Made by a program: the position numbers and the translations under genes | Notes under the pieces: model-generated | The model's input: the letters and a program-made list of their open reading frames with translations, nothing else | What the model was told of the DNA's origin: nothing | The model's database searches: none | Origin: an uncultured Bacteroidales bacterium | Lineage (GTDB): Bacteria > Bacteroidota > Bacteroidia > Bacteroidales > CAIWKO01 | Assembly: GCA_903913285.1 (NCBI GenBank) | Contig: CAIWKO010000060.1 | Location: forward strand, 62,001 to 126,000 | Reading direction: 5' to 3' | Length of the DNA: 64,000 nucleotides | In this document: positions 16,756 to 23,453 of the stretch, in pieces | Layout of the letters: the number at the start of each line of letters is the position of its first letter | Numbering within the stretch: the stretch's first letter is position 1

Positions 16756-18702
16756 TCATTTTGGCAAATTCTTAGTTATACCTTTCATCTTTTCCGTTAA
16801 TTCCAAGCGATTATTTTTTTCGGCGAAATCTGAGATATATTGAAGCACTTTTATGGCTTCATCCAGATCATCTTTCACAGTTTGCCGGCTCTTATTATCA
16901 AGCGAATTATAGTATTTCATTTTCTCTTCATAGATATCTGCAATACGTTCCAAAATAATGTCGCCTTTTTTTAGTTCCCCGCTGTTAATATAAAGTGTAC
17001 CATAATTCAGGATGTACTTATCAAACGCTATCAAAGAATCCGGCACTATTTCCAGTCCTTTATTCAAAAATGCAATGGCCCTGTTTGTATCTCCATCTGT
17101 CAATAAGGCCACAGCCAACTTGGCATAAAGAATACGATACCAAACAAACATATCACGGGTAAAATTATCGCTTCCGGTATGTTTGTCAATTTGAGTACCG
17201 TATTTAAATACGTTCATTAACAGATCATACGATCGTTCTTTCAGCACATCTCCCCCTGGCAAACTATCCCGTTTGACCGGCATAAAACGGTAAACTATCC
17301 CTTCCAGATAACAGTATTTTTCAACATCAAGAAAATCCATCAGGCTAGATGGACTTGCAAAACAGATAGGGCGCTCCCAGTGGTTGGAAGCAATAATATC
17401 GAGCAACAGCAGGTCATTTTTGTATAGATTCTCTTCATTCACTTTCCAAAAAACGGTGTCACACAAACGGCTTCTCATCGATGCAGGAATCATGTTCTTT
17501 TTTATCAAAGCTTCTTTATCAGCAGTCAAAAAGAAATTCTTGCTTGGGTAATAACTTATATATTTCCCGTTTGCCATCATCAATTTACTTGCTATATCAT
17601 CGCTGTTAACCGAATCAATAAATGTTTTTACATTTAAACTTTTCACCGATGGGTTTTGTGAATATTCAACCCACTCGTTGCTCCCGGTTTTATATTTATT
17701 AAAAGGTATGGTCGTTAATACTGGTTCCGAGAGATTGTGTTTAAGGTATAATTGCGCGATATACCACTCGGAGAATGCCAGAGTGAAATTTAAAACCCTC
17801 ACGTCTGTTCTGTATCCTTCAGCTTCCTGCACATACAAGACGGGGTAGGTATCGTTATCACCGTTCGTTATCAGAATAGCATTGGGCGGACAAGAGTTCA
17901 GATAATTTTTTGCAATGTTAATTGCTGCATCGTTATAAAGGCCGGGAATCATAAACTCTTTGGCCAGCTTATCTTCTTTAATACTTACAAGATTCATCCA
18001 TGCATCAACATAATCGTTCGATAATTTCTCAGGAGCATAACCCACGATGGTTTGAAAATACGGATTGCGCTCGGCTAACTCTTTAATTGTTGCAATACAT
18101 TTTTTTTCAAAGAACACATAATTATCAACTTGTTCCTTGCTTGCTTTTTCATATCCGAGAATTTTCTTTTTTTGTGTATGATACATGTACTGACCGCGCA
18201 AAAATGCTTCGGCATAATTAGTATACGCCCTTCCCAGCCCGTAAAGTACCGAATCCGGCAAATTCCTGTTCTTCCCAAAAGCACTTATCACATCCCGATC
18301 CCAGCCATTATAACCATAATAGGGATTAAATCTCCAGTCGTCAGAATTACAACTTGCCAGATAGGCTCTTATATAACTGCTATCGGTTTTGCCTTTTGTA
18401 TAGTGGGTAAGAGGAATAAACTTAGCGGTTTCAAGATCCCAGAACTTTTCAACATCACGACCAACAAACTCATCCGTCTCATATACTGATTTCGAAGCAT
18501 ACCAGCCATCAGGTTTTCGGCATAATTCTATATTATCATCAACTTTATTATAATGGTTAAAAAAGTAATTGGCAGCATCATATAATGAAGGATACTTTTT
18601 TAATATCGCAGGATCGGTCTTTAAATATGTAATATCACTATCCTGCGCACGACACCATAGTGCGCAAAAACAAATTAAAATAACGATTCCGGCTCTTTTC
18701 AT
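16756..18702 (-). CDS. Secreted protein resembling the C-terminal region of DUF2723 family proteins
   Basis: NAILITNGDNDTYPVLYVQEAEGYRTDVRVLNFTLAFSEWYIAQL; signal peptide. Confidence 0.6.
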   Translation of the reverse strand: MKRAGIVILICFCALWCRAQDSDITYLKTDPAILKKYPSLYDAANYFFNHYNKVDDNIELCRKPDGWYASKSVYETDEFVGRDVEKFWDLETAKFIPLTHYTKGKTDSSYIRAYLASCNSDDWRFNPYYGYNGWDRDVISAFGKNRNLPDSVLYGLGRAYTNYAEAFLRGQYMYHTQKKKILGYEKASKEQVDNYVFFEKKCIATIKELAERNPYFQTIVGYAPEKLSNDYVDAWMNLVSIKEDKLAKEFMIPGLYNDAAINIAKNYLNSCPPNAILITNGDNDTYPVLYVQEAEGYRTDVRVLNFTLAFSEWYIAQLYLKHNLSEPVLTTIPFNKYKTGSNEWVEYSQNPSVKSLNVKTFIDSVNSDDIASKLMMANGKYISYYPSKNFFLTADKEALIKKNMIPASMRSRLCDTVFWKVNEENLYKNDLLLLDIIASNHWERPICFASPSSLMDFLDVEKYCYLEGIVYRFMPVKRDSLPGGDVLKERSYDLLMNVFKYGTQIDKHTGSDNFTRDMFVWYRILYAKLAVALLTDGDTNRAIAFLNKGLEIVPDSLIAFDKYILNYGTLYINSGELKKGDIILERIADIYEEKMKYYNSLDNKSRQTVKDDLDEAIKVLQYISDFAEKNNRLELTEKMKGITKNLPK

Positions 18703-18899: not shown

Positions 18900-19907
18900 C
18901 TATTGAAAAATTCTCTTTTCTATCTTTTTCAGTACAACAAGGTCATCAATTGTCTTTTTTAAATAGCTTACCATTTCTGGAATTTGTTCTTCATTTTCAA
19001 TTATAAACTTAGCTAATTTTTCATAACGACCAATTGTCAAAACACCATCCGAGTCAACGGTCTCCCAATTTTTTAAATTTTTCTTTAATACATTAAACAA
19101 GTTATCTGTTTCTTTATACTTATCTGAAATTGTCAATTCAATTTCTGTTCCAATGTAAACTTCTTCATTAGACCACCAAAAGAATCCTATATTTACAAAT
19201 GACTTAAATTTGCTTTTAACATCTACATAATGATAGGTAGCATAAGAAAATTCTCTTTCAATTTTAGTACTTCTTGATGATTGCTTAGCCAATCCGCAAA
19301 TTTTATTTTCATAATATTCAGTGATCCCATCAATAACTTCATTCATTTTGCTTATTGTATCAGTTATTTTGGTTAATACGTTTAGGTCGGAATAATTAAA
19401 ATTTTTTGAGTCTGCCATGTTTTCTTCTTTTAAAAATGATTTGAATTCGTTCGTTAATTGGGTGTTTTTTTTATCTATTATTTGAAAAATATCAGCCCAC
19501 TTCATCAAGTGGAAAAGAACTGATTTGTCATATATTTCTTTTAAGTTGTAATATTTTGTTAGGTATACAAGATGTCTCTTTGTGATAGATTTACTTAGTA
19601 AAATCTTTTTATAGTCGTCCAGTTGGTTTGGTCTCTCAAAGTGTTCTATTTTACATTCAATTAAAATACAAGTTTTTTTTGTCGGAATATTTATTTCAAT
19701 ATCAGGTCTGCCAAACTCATAGCTTTTTTGTGTTTTGATAGTCGTTTCGCTGTCAGCCTGCAAGTCAAGTTTTTCAAGAAAGTTGTCACGAAATAATTTG
19801 TCTGCCTGTAAACAATTTGCGAAAATTTCTATTAAGAAATTTTCTTTGGAATTGGTGTTTTCTCTTTCCCTGTATGAATATATTTTACTAAAAACTGATT
19901 CTGTCAT
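18900..19907 (-). CDS. PD-(D/E)XK nuclease superfamily-like protein
   Basis: YEFGRPDIEINIPTKKTCILIECKIEHFERPNQLDDYKK: PD...(E)xK signature (GRPDIEI / IECKIE). Confidence 0.75.
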   Translation of the reverse strand: MTESVFSKIYSYRERENTNSKENFLIEIFANCLQADKLFRDNFLEKLDLQADSETTIKTQKSYEFGRPDIEINIPTKKTCILIECKIEHFERPNQLDDYKKILLSKSITKRHLVYLTKYYNLKEIYDKSVLFHLMKWADIFQIIDKKNTQLTNEFKSFLKEENMADSKNFNYSDLNVLTKITDTISKMNEVIDGITEYYENKICGLAKQSSRSTKIEREFSYATYHYVDVKSKFKSFVNIGFFWWSNEEVYIGTEIELTISDKYKETDNLFNVLKKNLKNWETVDSDGVLTIGRYEKLAKFIIENEEQIPEMVSYLKKTIDDLVVLKKIEKRIFQ

Positions 19908-19941
19908 TTTTTTATAATTGATGTCGTTTCAAAAAGCAGCG

Positions 19942-19970
19942 TACTATTTAAAATCCTTTTTACAAAACTT
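19942..19970 (+). repeat. Direct repeat copy 2 flanking the PD-(D/E)XK gene
   Basis: TACTATTTAAAATCCTTTTTACAAAACTT; 26/29 identical to 18759-18787. Confidence 0.85.
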
Positions 19971-20054
19971 GGTCAATTGGTGTAGTTACAAACTACAATT
20001 ACAAAATGCGAAGCTTGAAACTTTGCATAACTTAAAATATTACCTGTTAACTTA

Positions 20055-21278
20055 TTAATAAAGTTGAACAGTTTTCTGCCCATATTTGATATCAGTATAG
20101 TTGTCAGATATTTTTTTAATTACCAAATATTCAAATACTTCTAAAGACTTCCTGATTAGGGGAATAATAGTTTGAAAGTCGTTTGTATTCGATAATGAAA
20201 TATGATATTCACTTTCTTTATTATGAACAATACAGCATCTTAATCCATAAATAAACTCTGCTACTTTGCGTATTGAACTTGGACTGAAACCATCAACAAT
20301 TTTTTTGTCTCTTAAAAAAGTTATTTCATTCGCATTAGCCACTGGTGTCAATGCAGGCTTTATTATTGATACAAGGTCAGGTGTGAATATTTTCGAAAAA
20401 TTTCTGATAAAAGATTCTTTTTCTCCCTTTTTCATACTTTCTGCTGAATTAATAAATTCTCTCACAAAAATTCTACTTGACCCAACGCGATTTACTAAAT
20501 CAACTAAATAAACCCGATAGACTAAATATTCAAAAGTGTGATAAAGTCTTAAAAAACGATTCAAGATGTCTGGAGATTGATTTAGTTCGTTTATTACATC
20601 ATAAATATCAAAATACTGTTCATAATCTTTAGTTGAATCAAAAGATAAACCTGGATAAATTAATGTTTTTGAATACTTTAGATCACTTTGAAGAAGTATC
20701 GACTTGGCATCATTTAAAAAAGACAAATAAATAAATGGGTAGTGTTTGTCTTCATCAAAAGGAATAGCTGACTTGTTAATTACTAGTCCTTTATTTAAAT
20801 CTAGGTTTGAAATAATGTCGAAGAATTCATTTATAAAAACATTATTTACAATTGAGTAGCATCTTTCTAAATACTCTTCAATTTGCTTCCAAATTATTTC
20901 GAAATTTGGCTTTGATAAATCAATTATGTCGCCACTATCAAAAAGCGTTGATGACGATACAAATCCATAGTCAGTGTTTGAATATGCGAACCTTCTGTTT
21001 CTATTTTGAAATTTAGGTTGGGAAAAATCAATCTTTGTTGGATTTCCGATTATTGTGTAAGGTAAACTTAAAAATCCACCTTTATTATCTTTCCTTATTT
21101 GTTCAAGTGATTTTATGAATTTCTGAAAAATAGGAGGTGGGTTCAATAGTAATAACCATTGTAGCCCTTCTTCAAGATTATCATCAATATCAATAATATC
21201 AATTAGGTCTTGATCATTAAATCCCAAGTAAGTATTTAAAGATAGGATGACCTTTGATAAAAGTTCGTTACCTGTCAT
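20055..21278 (-). CDS. HEPN-like domain protein (C-terminal R-x4-H motif)
   Basis: C-terminal helical region LYHTFEYLVYRVYLVDL...IYGLRCCIVHNKESEYHISLS; RCCIVH fits the HEPN RNase R-x4-6-H motif. Starts 6 bp after the upstream gene's stop. Confidence 0.55.
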   Translation of the reverse strand: MTGNELLSKVILSLNTYLGFNDQDLIDIIDIDDNLEEGLQWLLLLNPPPIFQKFIKSLEQIRKDNKGGFLSLPYTIIGNPTKIDFSQPKFQNRNRRFAYSNTDYGFVSSSTLFDSGDIIDLSKPNFEIIWKQIEEYLERCYSIVNNVFINEFFDIISNLDLNKGLVINKSAIPFDEDKHYPFIYLSFLNDAKSILLQSDLKYSKTLIYPGLSFDSTKDYEQYFDIYDVINELNQSPDILNRFLRLYHTFEYLVYRVYLVDLVNRVGSSRIFVREFINSAESMKKGEKESFIRNFSKIFTPDLVSIIKPALTPVANANEITFLRDKKIVDGFSPSSIRKVAEFIYGLRCCIVHNKESEYHISLSNTNDFQTIIPLIRKSLEVFEYLVIKKISDNYTDIKYGQKTVQLY

Positions 21279-21284
21279 AGCTAT

Positions 21285-22517
21285 CTATTTTTCTCTTATT
21301 TGATTAAATATTTCACTCCAAGTCAATTGCTTTTCTTCGAGCAATGATTGAGTATATTCCATTACAACTTTTCTAATGAAAGAACCAATATTTACCGACC
21401 TACTGGAAAGCACATTATATTCGTTCGTGAACTGAGTTAAGTTAAGTCCATTTTTTGTAATAGAATTATTCAACTTTTCGAAAACATCATTAGTTTGACT
21501 GAAAACATTTTCTGGGTCTTGGAGGTTAATTTTCCTACCAATTGCTGCGAATATACCGCTAAGAGAAGTATCCTTAGAAAACCATTCTTTCCCTTTCGCG
21601 TCATTTATAGAAATCAATTTATCCAGCTCAAATAACTTATTTAAAAACAAGTCTAGGTATTCTTTACTAAAAACTATATCATATACTTTCTCTGGTGTTT
21701 CTTCACTATCAATAAATTCGTTTTCAATTAATTTGTCAGTTGATACTCTTAGTGGTTTGCCTTCCACTAGCGATTGTAGAGCTACTATAACGGAAGAAAA
21801 CATAAACTGACCTAATTCTCTGATTCCCCTTTTTATATCGTTAGCATTTATATTTTTTTCTCTAAAAAGTTGTATTGGGGTATCAGAATTATTTATTGTT
21901 TCAAAATAATGAAGAAATAACAGCTCAAATTGGTGGGTCTTTGATACAGATTTTTGTCCTGCATTTAAGAGTAGCATTTTTTGAATTACTTCTTTCTCAT
22001 TTAACCCAGTCCAAATGGTAAAATAAACATCATAATTGCTAAATCTTGATGGTATTTTCTCTATTTCATTTGTTTCAATTAATGATTTTATTAAACGAGT
22101 TGACATGACTCCTGAATCAAAAAATAATGGATTTATTTCCTTCAACTCTTTTGCAAAAGTTCTATAATCAGATTTTGTCTTAGAATATTGCTTTGATGTG
22201 GCGAGATGAGCCCATAAGCGGAAAGACCGTTGAAGTCCATCTAAAATTTCAGTTTCAGACAAATCAAAAGAGACTTGATTATAATCTATTTCATTAAGTT
22301 TTGATTTTTTATATGTAAGTGTAATAGTAGGGATAGGGTCGCCTATCTGTATTGTTGAGTAGAGTTTGTCTAAATATTGATTTTTGACAATCCTTCTCTG
22401 AATTGCATACTCGTAGAAATCTATTTTCAAACCTTCTAAGTAATCTATTAATTTCCCTTTACATAGATACCAAGTCCTATGTTGGATTTCCTTTTTGTCT
22501 AGAATTTCTATTTCCAT
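21285..22517 (-). CDS. DUF262/DGQHR-like (ParB-fold-like) protein
   Basis: ETEILDGLQRSFRLWAHLATSKQ (DGQ(Q/H)R-type motif) and LLLNAGQKSVSKTHQFELLFLHYF, typical of the DUF262/DndB-like group. Confidence 0.6.
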   Translation of the reverse strand: MEIEILDKKEIQHRTWYLCKGKLIDYLEGLKIDFYEYAIQRRIVKNQYLDKLYSTIQIGDPIPTITLTYKKSKLNEIDYNQVSFDLSETEILDGLQRSFRLWAHLATSKQYSKTKSDYRTFAKELKEINPLFFDSGVMSTRLIKSLIETNEIEKIPSRFSNYDVYFTIWTGLNEKEVIQKMLLLNAGQKSVSKTHQFELLFLHYFETINNSDTPIQLFREKNINANDIKRGIRELGQFMFSSVIVALQSLVEGKPLRVSTDKLIENEFIDSEETPEKVYDIVFSKEYLDLFLNKLFELDKLISINDAKGKEWFSKDTSLSGIFAAIGRKINLQDPENVFSQTNDVFEKLNNSITKNGLNLTQFTNEYNVLSSRSVNIGSFIRKVVMEYTQSLLEEKQLTWSEIFNQIREK

Positions 22518-22792
22518 TTCGAATAGTTATTGATTTTTAGCTTGTAGGCAAAATTTGTATGAAACATTGATATAATTTTTATTCTACCTATTCAGTAGGT
22601 GCAATCCATGTATCCATTGGCCAAGTTTCCAAACTTCCCACAAAAATATTCTTTAGTTTCCAATCACATACAAATTTCACCTCAAATATATAAATTTATT
22701 CGATTGAAAATTATTTTTTCAAAAAAAATCATATTATTTTCTCAAAAAAAAACAACGATTAAAGCTTTAAAAAACATAAAAGTCAAATTGAA

Positions 22793-23044
22793 AACAACGA
22801 TTATCAAAATCTGAACAATGGATTACAAAATCTGAACAACGACAATCAAAATTATGACTATGGATGACAAAAATATGACAATGGATGACAAAATCTGAAC
22901 AACGACAATCAAAATTATGACAATGGATGACAAAATTATGACAATGGATGACAAAATGGAGTCAACGACGATCAAATTCTGAACAACGACAATCAAAATT
23001 ACGACAATGGATGACAAAATGGAGTCAACGACAATCAAAATGTA
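22793..23044. repeat. 21-nt tandem repeat sub-array A1 (12 units)
   Basis: Hand-parsed into 12 consecutive 21-nt units without indels, e.g. AACAACGACAATCAAAATTAT / GACAATGGATGACAAAATTAT. Confidence 0.9.
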
Positions 23045-23180
23045 AAAAATCAAAACAAAAAAACAAATCAAGTTGTTAATTATCAATATAATAATAAATA
23101 AGTCAACCAATTTACTTCTTAACAAATTAACCAACGAACTCAAAAATCACACCCCTAAAACAAAAATAACAACACACTAC

Positions 23181-23453
23181 CTCGTCCGAACGACACTTCA
23201 CCTCGTCGGAACGACTACGTTTCTCGTCCGAACGACACTATTCCTTCTCCGGACGACTCTGTTCCTCTTCCGAACCGCACTATTCCTTCTCCGGACAACA
23301 CTATCCCTTCTCCGGACGACACTATCCCTTCTCCGGACGACACTATCCCTCTTCCGGACGACACTATCCCTTCTCCGAACGACTCTGTCACTCGTCCGAA
23401 CGACTCTGCACCTTTTTCAGACTACATCAAACCTTTTTCAAACAACATCAAAC
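23181..23453. repeat. 21-nt tandem repeat sub-array A2 (13 units)
   Basis: Units such as CTTCTCCGGACGACACTATCC, CTCGTCCGAACGACACTATTC, no indels; a degenerate 14th unit follows. Confidence 0.9.

Follow-up and report, generated by a model that had tools for sequence, protein, structure and literature searches.

The locus consists of three consecutive genes on the minus strand of the window, by which we mean the whole 64,000-nucleotide stretch of DNA analysed. Gene 1 (dzbA; 21285-22517) encodes a 410 aa DGQHR/DUF262-like protein with a putative ParB/Srx fold, gene 2 (dzbB; 20055-21278) a 407 aa protein with a C-terminal HEPN-like ribonuclease signature, and gene 3 (18900-19907) a 335 aa PD-(D/E)XK nuclease-like protein related to PDC-S26 and PDDEXK_4. 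Gaps of 6 bp between dzbA and dzbB and of 147 bp between dzbB and gene 3 were measured as described in the original prediction, and every motif quoted there (EILDGLQRSFRLW, LLLNAGQKSVSKTHQFEL, IYGLRCCIVHNKESEYH, GRPDIEI and ILIECKIE) was found in the three-gene stretch. Promoter- and terminator-like sites near this cassette were no more numerous than expected from shuffled sequence. Two tandem-repeat arrays with a 21-bp period occupy intergenic positions 22783-23047 and 23180-23453 upstream of dzbA, and the frames open within them are repetitive and probably spurious. The cassette is also adjoined by a gene at 16756-18702 for a 648-aa protein with several paralogues in its own genome and in genus relatives.

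Comparison with PADLOC models identified gene 1 as Dazbog protein A (DzbA; PDLC03835, E = 5.6e-36, 122.7 bits) and gene 2 as Dazbog protein B (DzbB; PDLC03836, E = 4.2e-8, 31 bits, residues 147-392). Profile searches of Pfam and NCBIfam returned nothing usable for these two genes, and sequence searches of the PDB gave no significant match for any of the three. Judged from sequence, genes 1 and 2 are a diverged Bacteroidota member of Dazbog, a two-gene anti-phage system described by Millman et al. 2022 (cited in PMC10952713) whose mechanism is given as unknown in reviews, and the proposal that a defence module lies here is supported. As in Dazbog, dzbA is followed immediately by dzbB on the same strand, with DGLQR in the first protein and a C-terminal R-x4-H in its partner, but the pair differs in its diverged branch and in being flanked by a PD-(D/E)XK gene that has no homologues at the other DzbAB loci examined.

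The G+C content of the three genes is 28-30% (28.2% for gene 3) in comparison to 39% for the window and mostly 41-45% for flanking housekeeping genes. Two relatives of the same genus (G396 and G398) have the PadR-PspC side in common with the window and are missing the cassette; the G398 contig ends after this side, and the different content beyond it is visible in G396 only. Low G+C content together with absence from genus relatives suggests horizontal acquisition, and the three genes therefore look like one foreign A+T-rich cassette.

When the collection was scanned from an alignment of DzbA, with DGLQR as the scan pattern, 74 loci from many phyla were obtained. The PADLOC DzbA model was matched by all 65 gene 1 homologues scanned, and a co-directional partner gene was located no more than 60 bp downstream of dzbA for 76 of 80 distinct DzbA, which together indicate that DzbAB forms a conserved unit. 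The closest relatives of the window DzbA were found at loci L011 (64%) and L003 (60%), and a wider class search for DzbA of the window clade matched the window alone.

Alignment of the 65 DzbA homologues showed conservation of Q40-R41, D93-G-L-Q-R97 (22227-22241, minus strand), N185-x-G187 and Q196. The invariance of DGLQR in these 65 rows is partly by construction, as this motif was the collection-scan pattern, and the case for DzbA is therefore built on the remaining conserved positions and on the adjoining partner. Profile-profile comparison (hhalign) aligned DzbA to DUF262 with P = 6e-6, pairing its QR and DGLQR with QR and DGQQR, and to DGQHR with P = 3e-5 across 165 columns that run through QR, DG[LQ][QH]R and a second Asn/Gln motif, in comparison to P values of 0.07-0.56 for unrelated control profiles. 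DGLQR is thereby placed on the DUF262 pocket motif DGQQR, with a different third residue. The DGQQR/DGQHR motif of related proteins forms a nucleotide pocket, and DUF262 has been reported in Dazbog as required for defence (PMC10952713). Structure modelling, which had been put forward as a check, gave an AlphaFold2 model of DzbA from 65 sequences with a pLDDT of 91.8, and its best Foldseek matches in the PDB were SspE (E = 0.031), BrxU (0.036) and ParB-N (0.14), all above the usual cut. In Pfam searches gene 1 itself did not match PF03235, for which two DzbA homologues were below the cut-off (G021, 3.1e-6; G029, 5.6e-5), and in the NCBIfam search it did not match TIGR03187. The profiles, which are the stronger evidence, and the suggestive Foldseek results both point to DzbA as a remote DGQHR/DUF262 (ParB/sulfiredoxin-like) protein, in agreement with the assignment first made for gene 1.

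This assignment places DzbA near two groups of known proteins. GmrSD, BrxU and SspE (DUF262-DUF1524) resemble it in the QR and DGxQR motifs and in the predicted ParB/Srx-like fold, but DzbA is without DUF1524/HNH and its effector is apparently a separate HEPN-like protein. The DndB/DGQHR family (TIGR03187) resembles DzbA over the profile alignment, but gene 1 falls outside the TIGR03187 model and no phosphorothioation genes were seen in the immediate surroundings.

The gene 2 product carries the R-x4-H motif R347-C-C-I-V-H352 (20223-20240, minus strand) and, upstream of it, the acidic residue E250 (20529-20531, minus strand) within RFLRLYHTFE. Across 54 diverse DzbB with approximately 13-62% identity to the window protein, E250, R347 and H352 were the only invariant columns. 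A further 13 partners lay beyond the reach of the DzbB profile, and among these only E, R and H plus Met1 were invariant, with unchanged R-H spacing. The 54-row set was gathered with a profile containing R-x4-H, and cleaner evidence comes from a profile-free count, where R[NSCDHE]x3H occurred within the last 110 aa of 71 of the 76 DzbA partners, compared with 7 of 184 unrelated-by-position proteins in the 300-480 aa size range. The motifs originally noted in genes 2 and 3 are thus retained beyond chance, D69 and E84-x-K86 likewise being kept among gene 3 homologues. The active site of HEPN ribonucleases comprises an R-x4-6-H motif ending helix 3 and an upstream acidic residue, with N, D or H typical after the Arg (PMC3710099). 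The corresponding DzbB position is Cys in the window and in 33 of the 54 sequences, N in 12 and S in 9, and it is N in 11 of the 13 distant partners.

The five-sequence structure prediction for DzbB is weak (pLDDT 45.7); in it the C-terminus is all-helical and R347 closes a helix that H352 directly follows, which is the location of R-x4-6-H in HEPN proteins. Its search against the PDB gave nothing significant, the first-ranked HEPN toxin being given almost no weight, and this model did not confirm the HEPN fold for DzbB. Among HEPN Pfam families the best match to the 54 DzbB was HEPN_Apea (E = 0.034, one member only), and hhalign comparison to HEPN profiles gave P = 0.0055 for RiboL-PSP and 0.37 for Apea. 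As no HEPN profile was matched significantly, we call DzbB HEPN-like and do not file it as a member of any HEPN family. On the strength of its active-site signature we nevertheless consider a HEPN identity likely, and the HEPN-like label of the original prediction stands in this respect. Pfam matches of DzbB to Pox_int_trans (0.0012) and MauJ (16 of 54, best 1e-4) were weak and were set aside. The accessible literature, which covers neither the paper of Millman et al. nor that of Stokar-Avihail et al., contained no HEPN assignment of DzbB.

The explanation we favour, and hold to be probable with some reserve, is that the locus contains an acquired Dazbog pair in which DzbA would be the sensor and switch, DzbB a HEPN RNase effector, and gene 3 separate from both. 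DzbA would most likely combine sensing with a nucleotide-dependent (NTP) switch, and DzbB would most likely act as a metal-independent HEPN endoribonuclease with R347 and H352 as catalytic residues assisted by E250. As long as no phage is present, the two co-translated proteins would stay inactive. An infection signal, probably phage DNA modification or a methylase, would be sensed by DzbA; modified DNA is the most plausible signal, as phage methylases can activate Dazbog (PMC12409349). DzbA would then license DzbB to cut RNA, which would stop phage production and halt growth, a presumably abortive outcome. The three invariant DzbB residues offer a direct and cheap handle on effector activity. 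A HEPN protein is likewise coupled to a DUF262/ParB-like one in PD-T4-2 and RiboL-PSP-HEPN/ParB pairs, but these use another HEPN family; PF18735 gave no match to DzbB, and similarity at the profile level is weak. PF03235 (DUF262) and PF18735 (HEPN) genes also lie side by side, in PD-T4-2-like fashion, in three genomes of our collection (G039, G072 and G025).

Alternatively, DzbA itself may be the effector on DNA or nucleotides in the manner of SspE and BrxU, with DzbB as a non-catalytic HEPN-like partner or regulator. DUF262 proteins, SspE and BrxU among them, do target DNA and have NTPase activity (PMC10952713), and the HEPN fold of DzbB is no more than putative given its poor model, but Pfam searches found no DUF1524/HNH nuclease domain in DzbA, and the sole residues kept in DzbB are the catalytic HEPN triad, which implies catalysis. 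We consider this division of labour unlikely.

Gene 3 raises a different question, as the three genes had been proposed to constitute one system without a name. Its assignment as a PD-(D/E)XK-like protein holds: the nuclease core, with D69 (in GRPD) and E84-C-K86 at 19650-19703 on the minus strand, matched PADLOC PDC-S26 (1.7e-9), and the D...E-x-K residues D69, E84 and K86 are kept in homologues L087, L088, L105 and L106. It differs from typical PDC-S26/PDDEXK_4 proteins in that its C-terminal part lies outside the PDC-S26 match and in that gene 3 itself is missed by PF14281 (PDDEXK_4), a model that some of its homologues do match (for example L087 at 1.2e-8). Homologues of gene 3 occur on plasmids and chromosomes, and searches of phage records and viral contigs found none.

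If all three genes formed one true system, gene 3 would be its effector DNase and DzbAB would do the sensing or regulating; this would fit the common strand, the 147 bp gap and the shared 28-30% G+C content. A further point in its favour is a Pedobacter locus of the window clade (L015), where a PDDEXK_4/PDC-S26 gene follows DzbB after 95 bp; the PDC-S26 match at this locus was assigned to its sole identified PDDEXK_4 protein, assumed to be the same gene. PF14281 is rare in the phylum (14 of 99 genomes), and two such neighbours of DzbAB are therefore not trivial. Against this, no gene 3 homologue was found at any other DzbAB locus examined, including the 60-64% identical L003/L107 and L011, the last of which is cut shortly after dzbB. 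Conversely, DzbAB was not found near the gene 3 homologues on plasmids L087 and L088, nor beside those of L105 and L106, whose neighbouring genes were judged by size and family. Moreover, BLAST showed no similarity between the L015 nuclease and gene 3, and PADLOC treats PDC-S26 as a separate candidate outside Dazbog. The three genes as a conserved unit were rejected on the absence of gene 3 homologues near the other DzbAB loci examined, and we regard a functional three-gene system as quite improbable. The co-occurrence survey that had been proposed accordingly upheld the dzbA-partner pair (76 of 80), with defence genes near some of the loci, and did not extend to gene 3. The data instead hint at a loose, repeated association of PDDEXK_4/PDC-S26 genes with DzbAB rather than a fixed component, and gene 3 is most likely a co-acquired passenger or add-on, a separate candidate defence gene acting alone.

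DzbAB was found on viral contigs too, and in some relatives it has defence genes as neighbours, among them McrBC, AIPR and restriction systems of types I, II and III. The small plasmid p.1 of Pseudomonas sp. DY-1, which also has an integrase and genes of filamentous-phage type, encodes a DzbA-like protein and a partner directly after it (L185, 4659-7033). That the pair serves primarily in stress toxin-antitoxin or regulatory functions and not in phage defence is very improbable: HEPN proteins are indeed common toxins of toxin-antitoxin systems (PMC3710099), but Dazbog is named for phage defence and its relatives have the defence-gene, viral and plasmid contexts just described.

Returning to the favoured reading of a DzbA sensor and DzbB effector, a further context for DzbAB was observed at ten loci (L044, L048, L049, L050, L054, L059, L068, L070, L086 and L005) where a C5 methylase gene directly precedes dzbA (-4 to +14 bp). 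An MvaI/BcnI endonuclease lies after dzbB or close by in four of these ten (identified with Pfam in L044, L059 and L049 and from the record annotation in L086), and genes of the same length occupy this position in L048, L050, L054, L068 and L070. The methylase-DzbAB arrangement arose about twice on the tree, in a branch distant from the window. Operons combining HEPN, ParB and methylase genes, but from a different family, have been on record since 2013 (PMC3710099), and the operon logic of methylase-DzbA-DzbB-MvaI/BcnI resembles that of the MAE_28990 HEPN, ParB nuclease and DNA methylase genes; the difference is that DzbB members have no Pfam match to MAE_28990 and that the window cassette has no adjoining methylase.

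The context of this restriction-operon branch is consistent with the reported activation of Dazbog by phage methylases. A more far-reaching reading, tentative and held at somewhat less than even confidence, is that Dazbog is a methylation-responsive RNA-degrading system in which a DGQHR/DUF262-type DzbA sensor gates DzbB, a so far unrecognised HEPN RNase family, and that one branch has been built into MvaI/BcnI restriction operons as a back-up against phages that escape restriction. Two minor observations concern the methylases: that of L059 has at its N-terminus Arm-DNA-bind_5, a domain typical of integrases, and the Pedobacter locus (L015, 12399-14697) has two consecutive C5 methylases shortly after its DzbAB-PDDEXK_4 arrangement.
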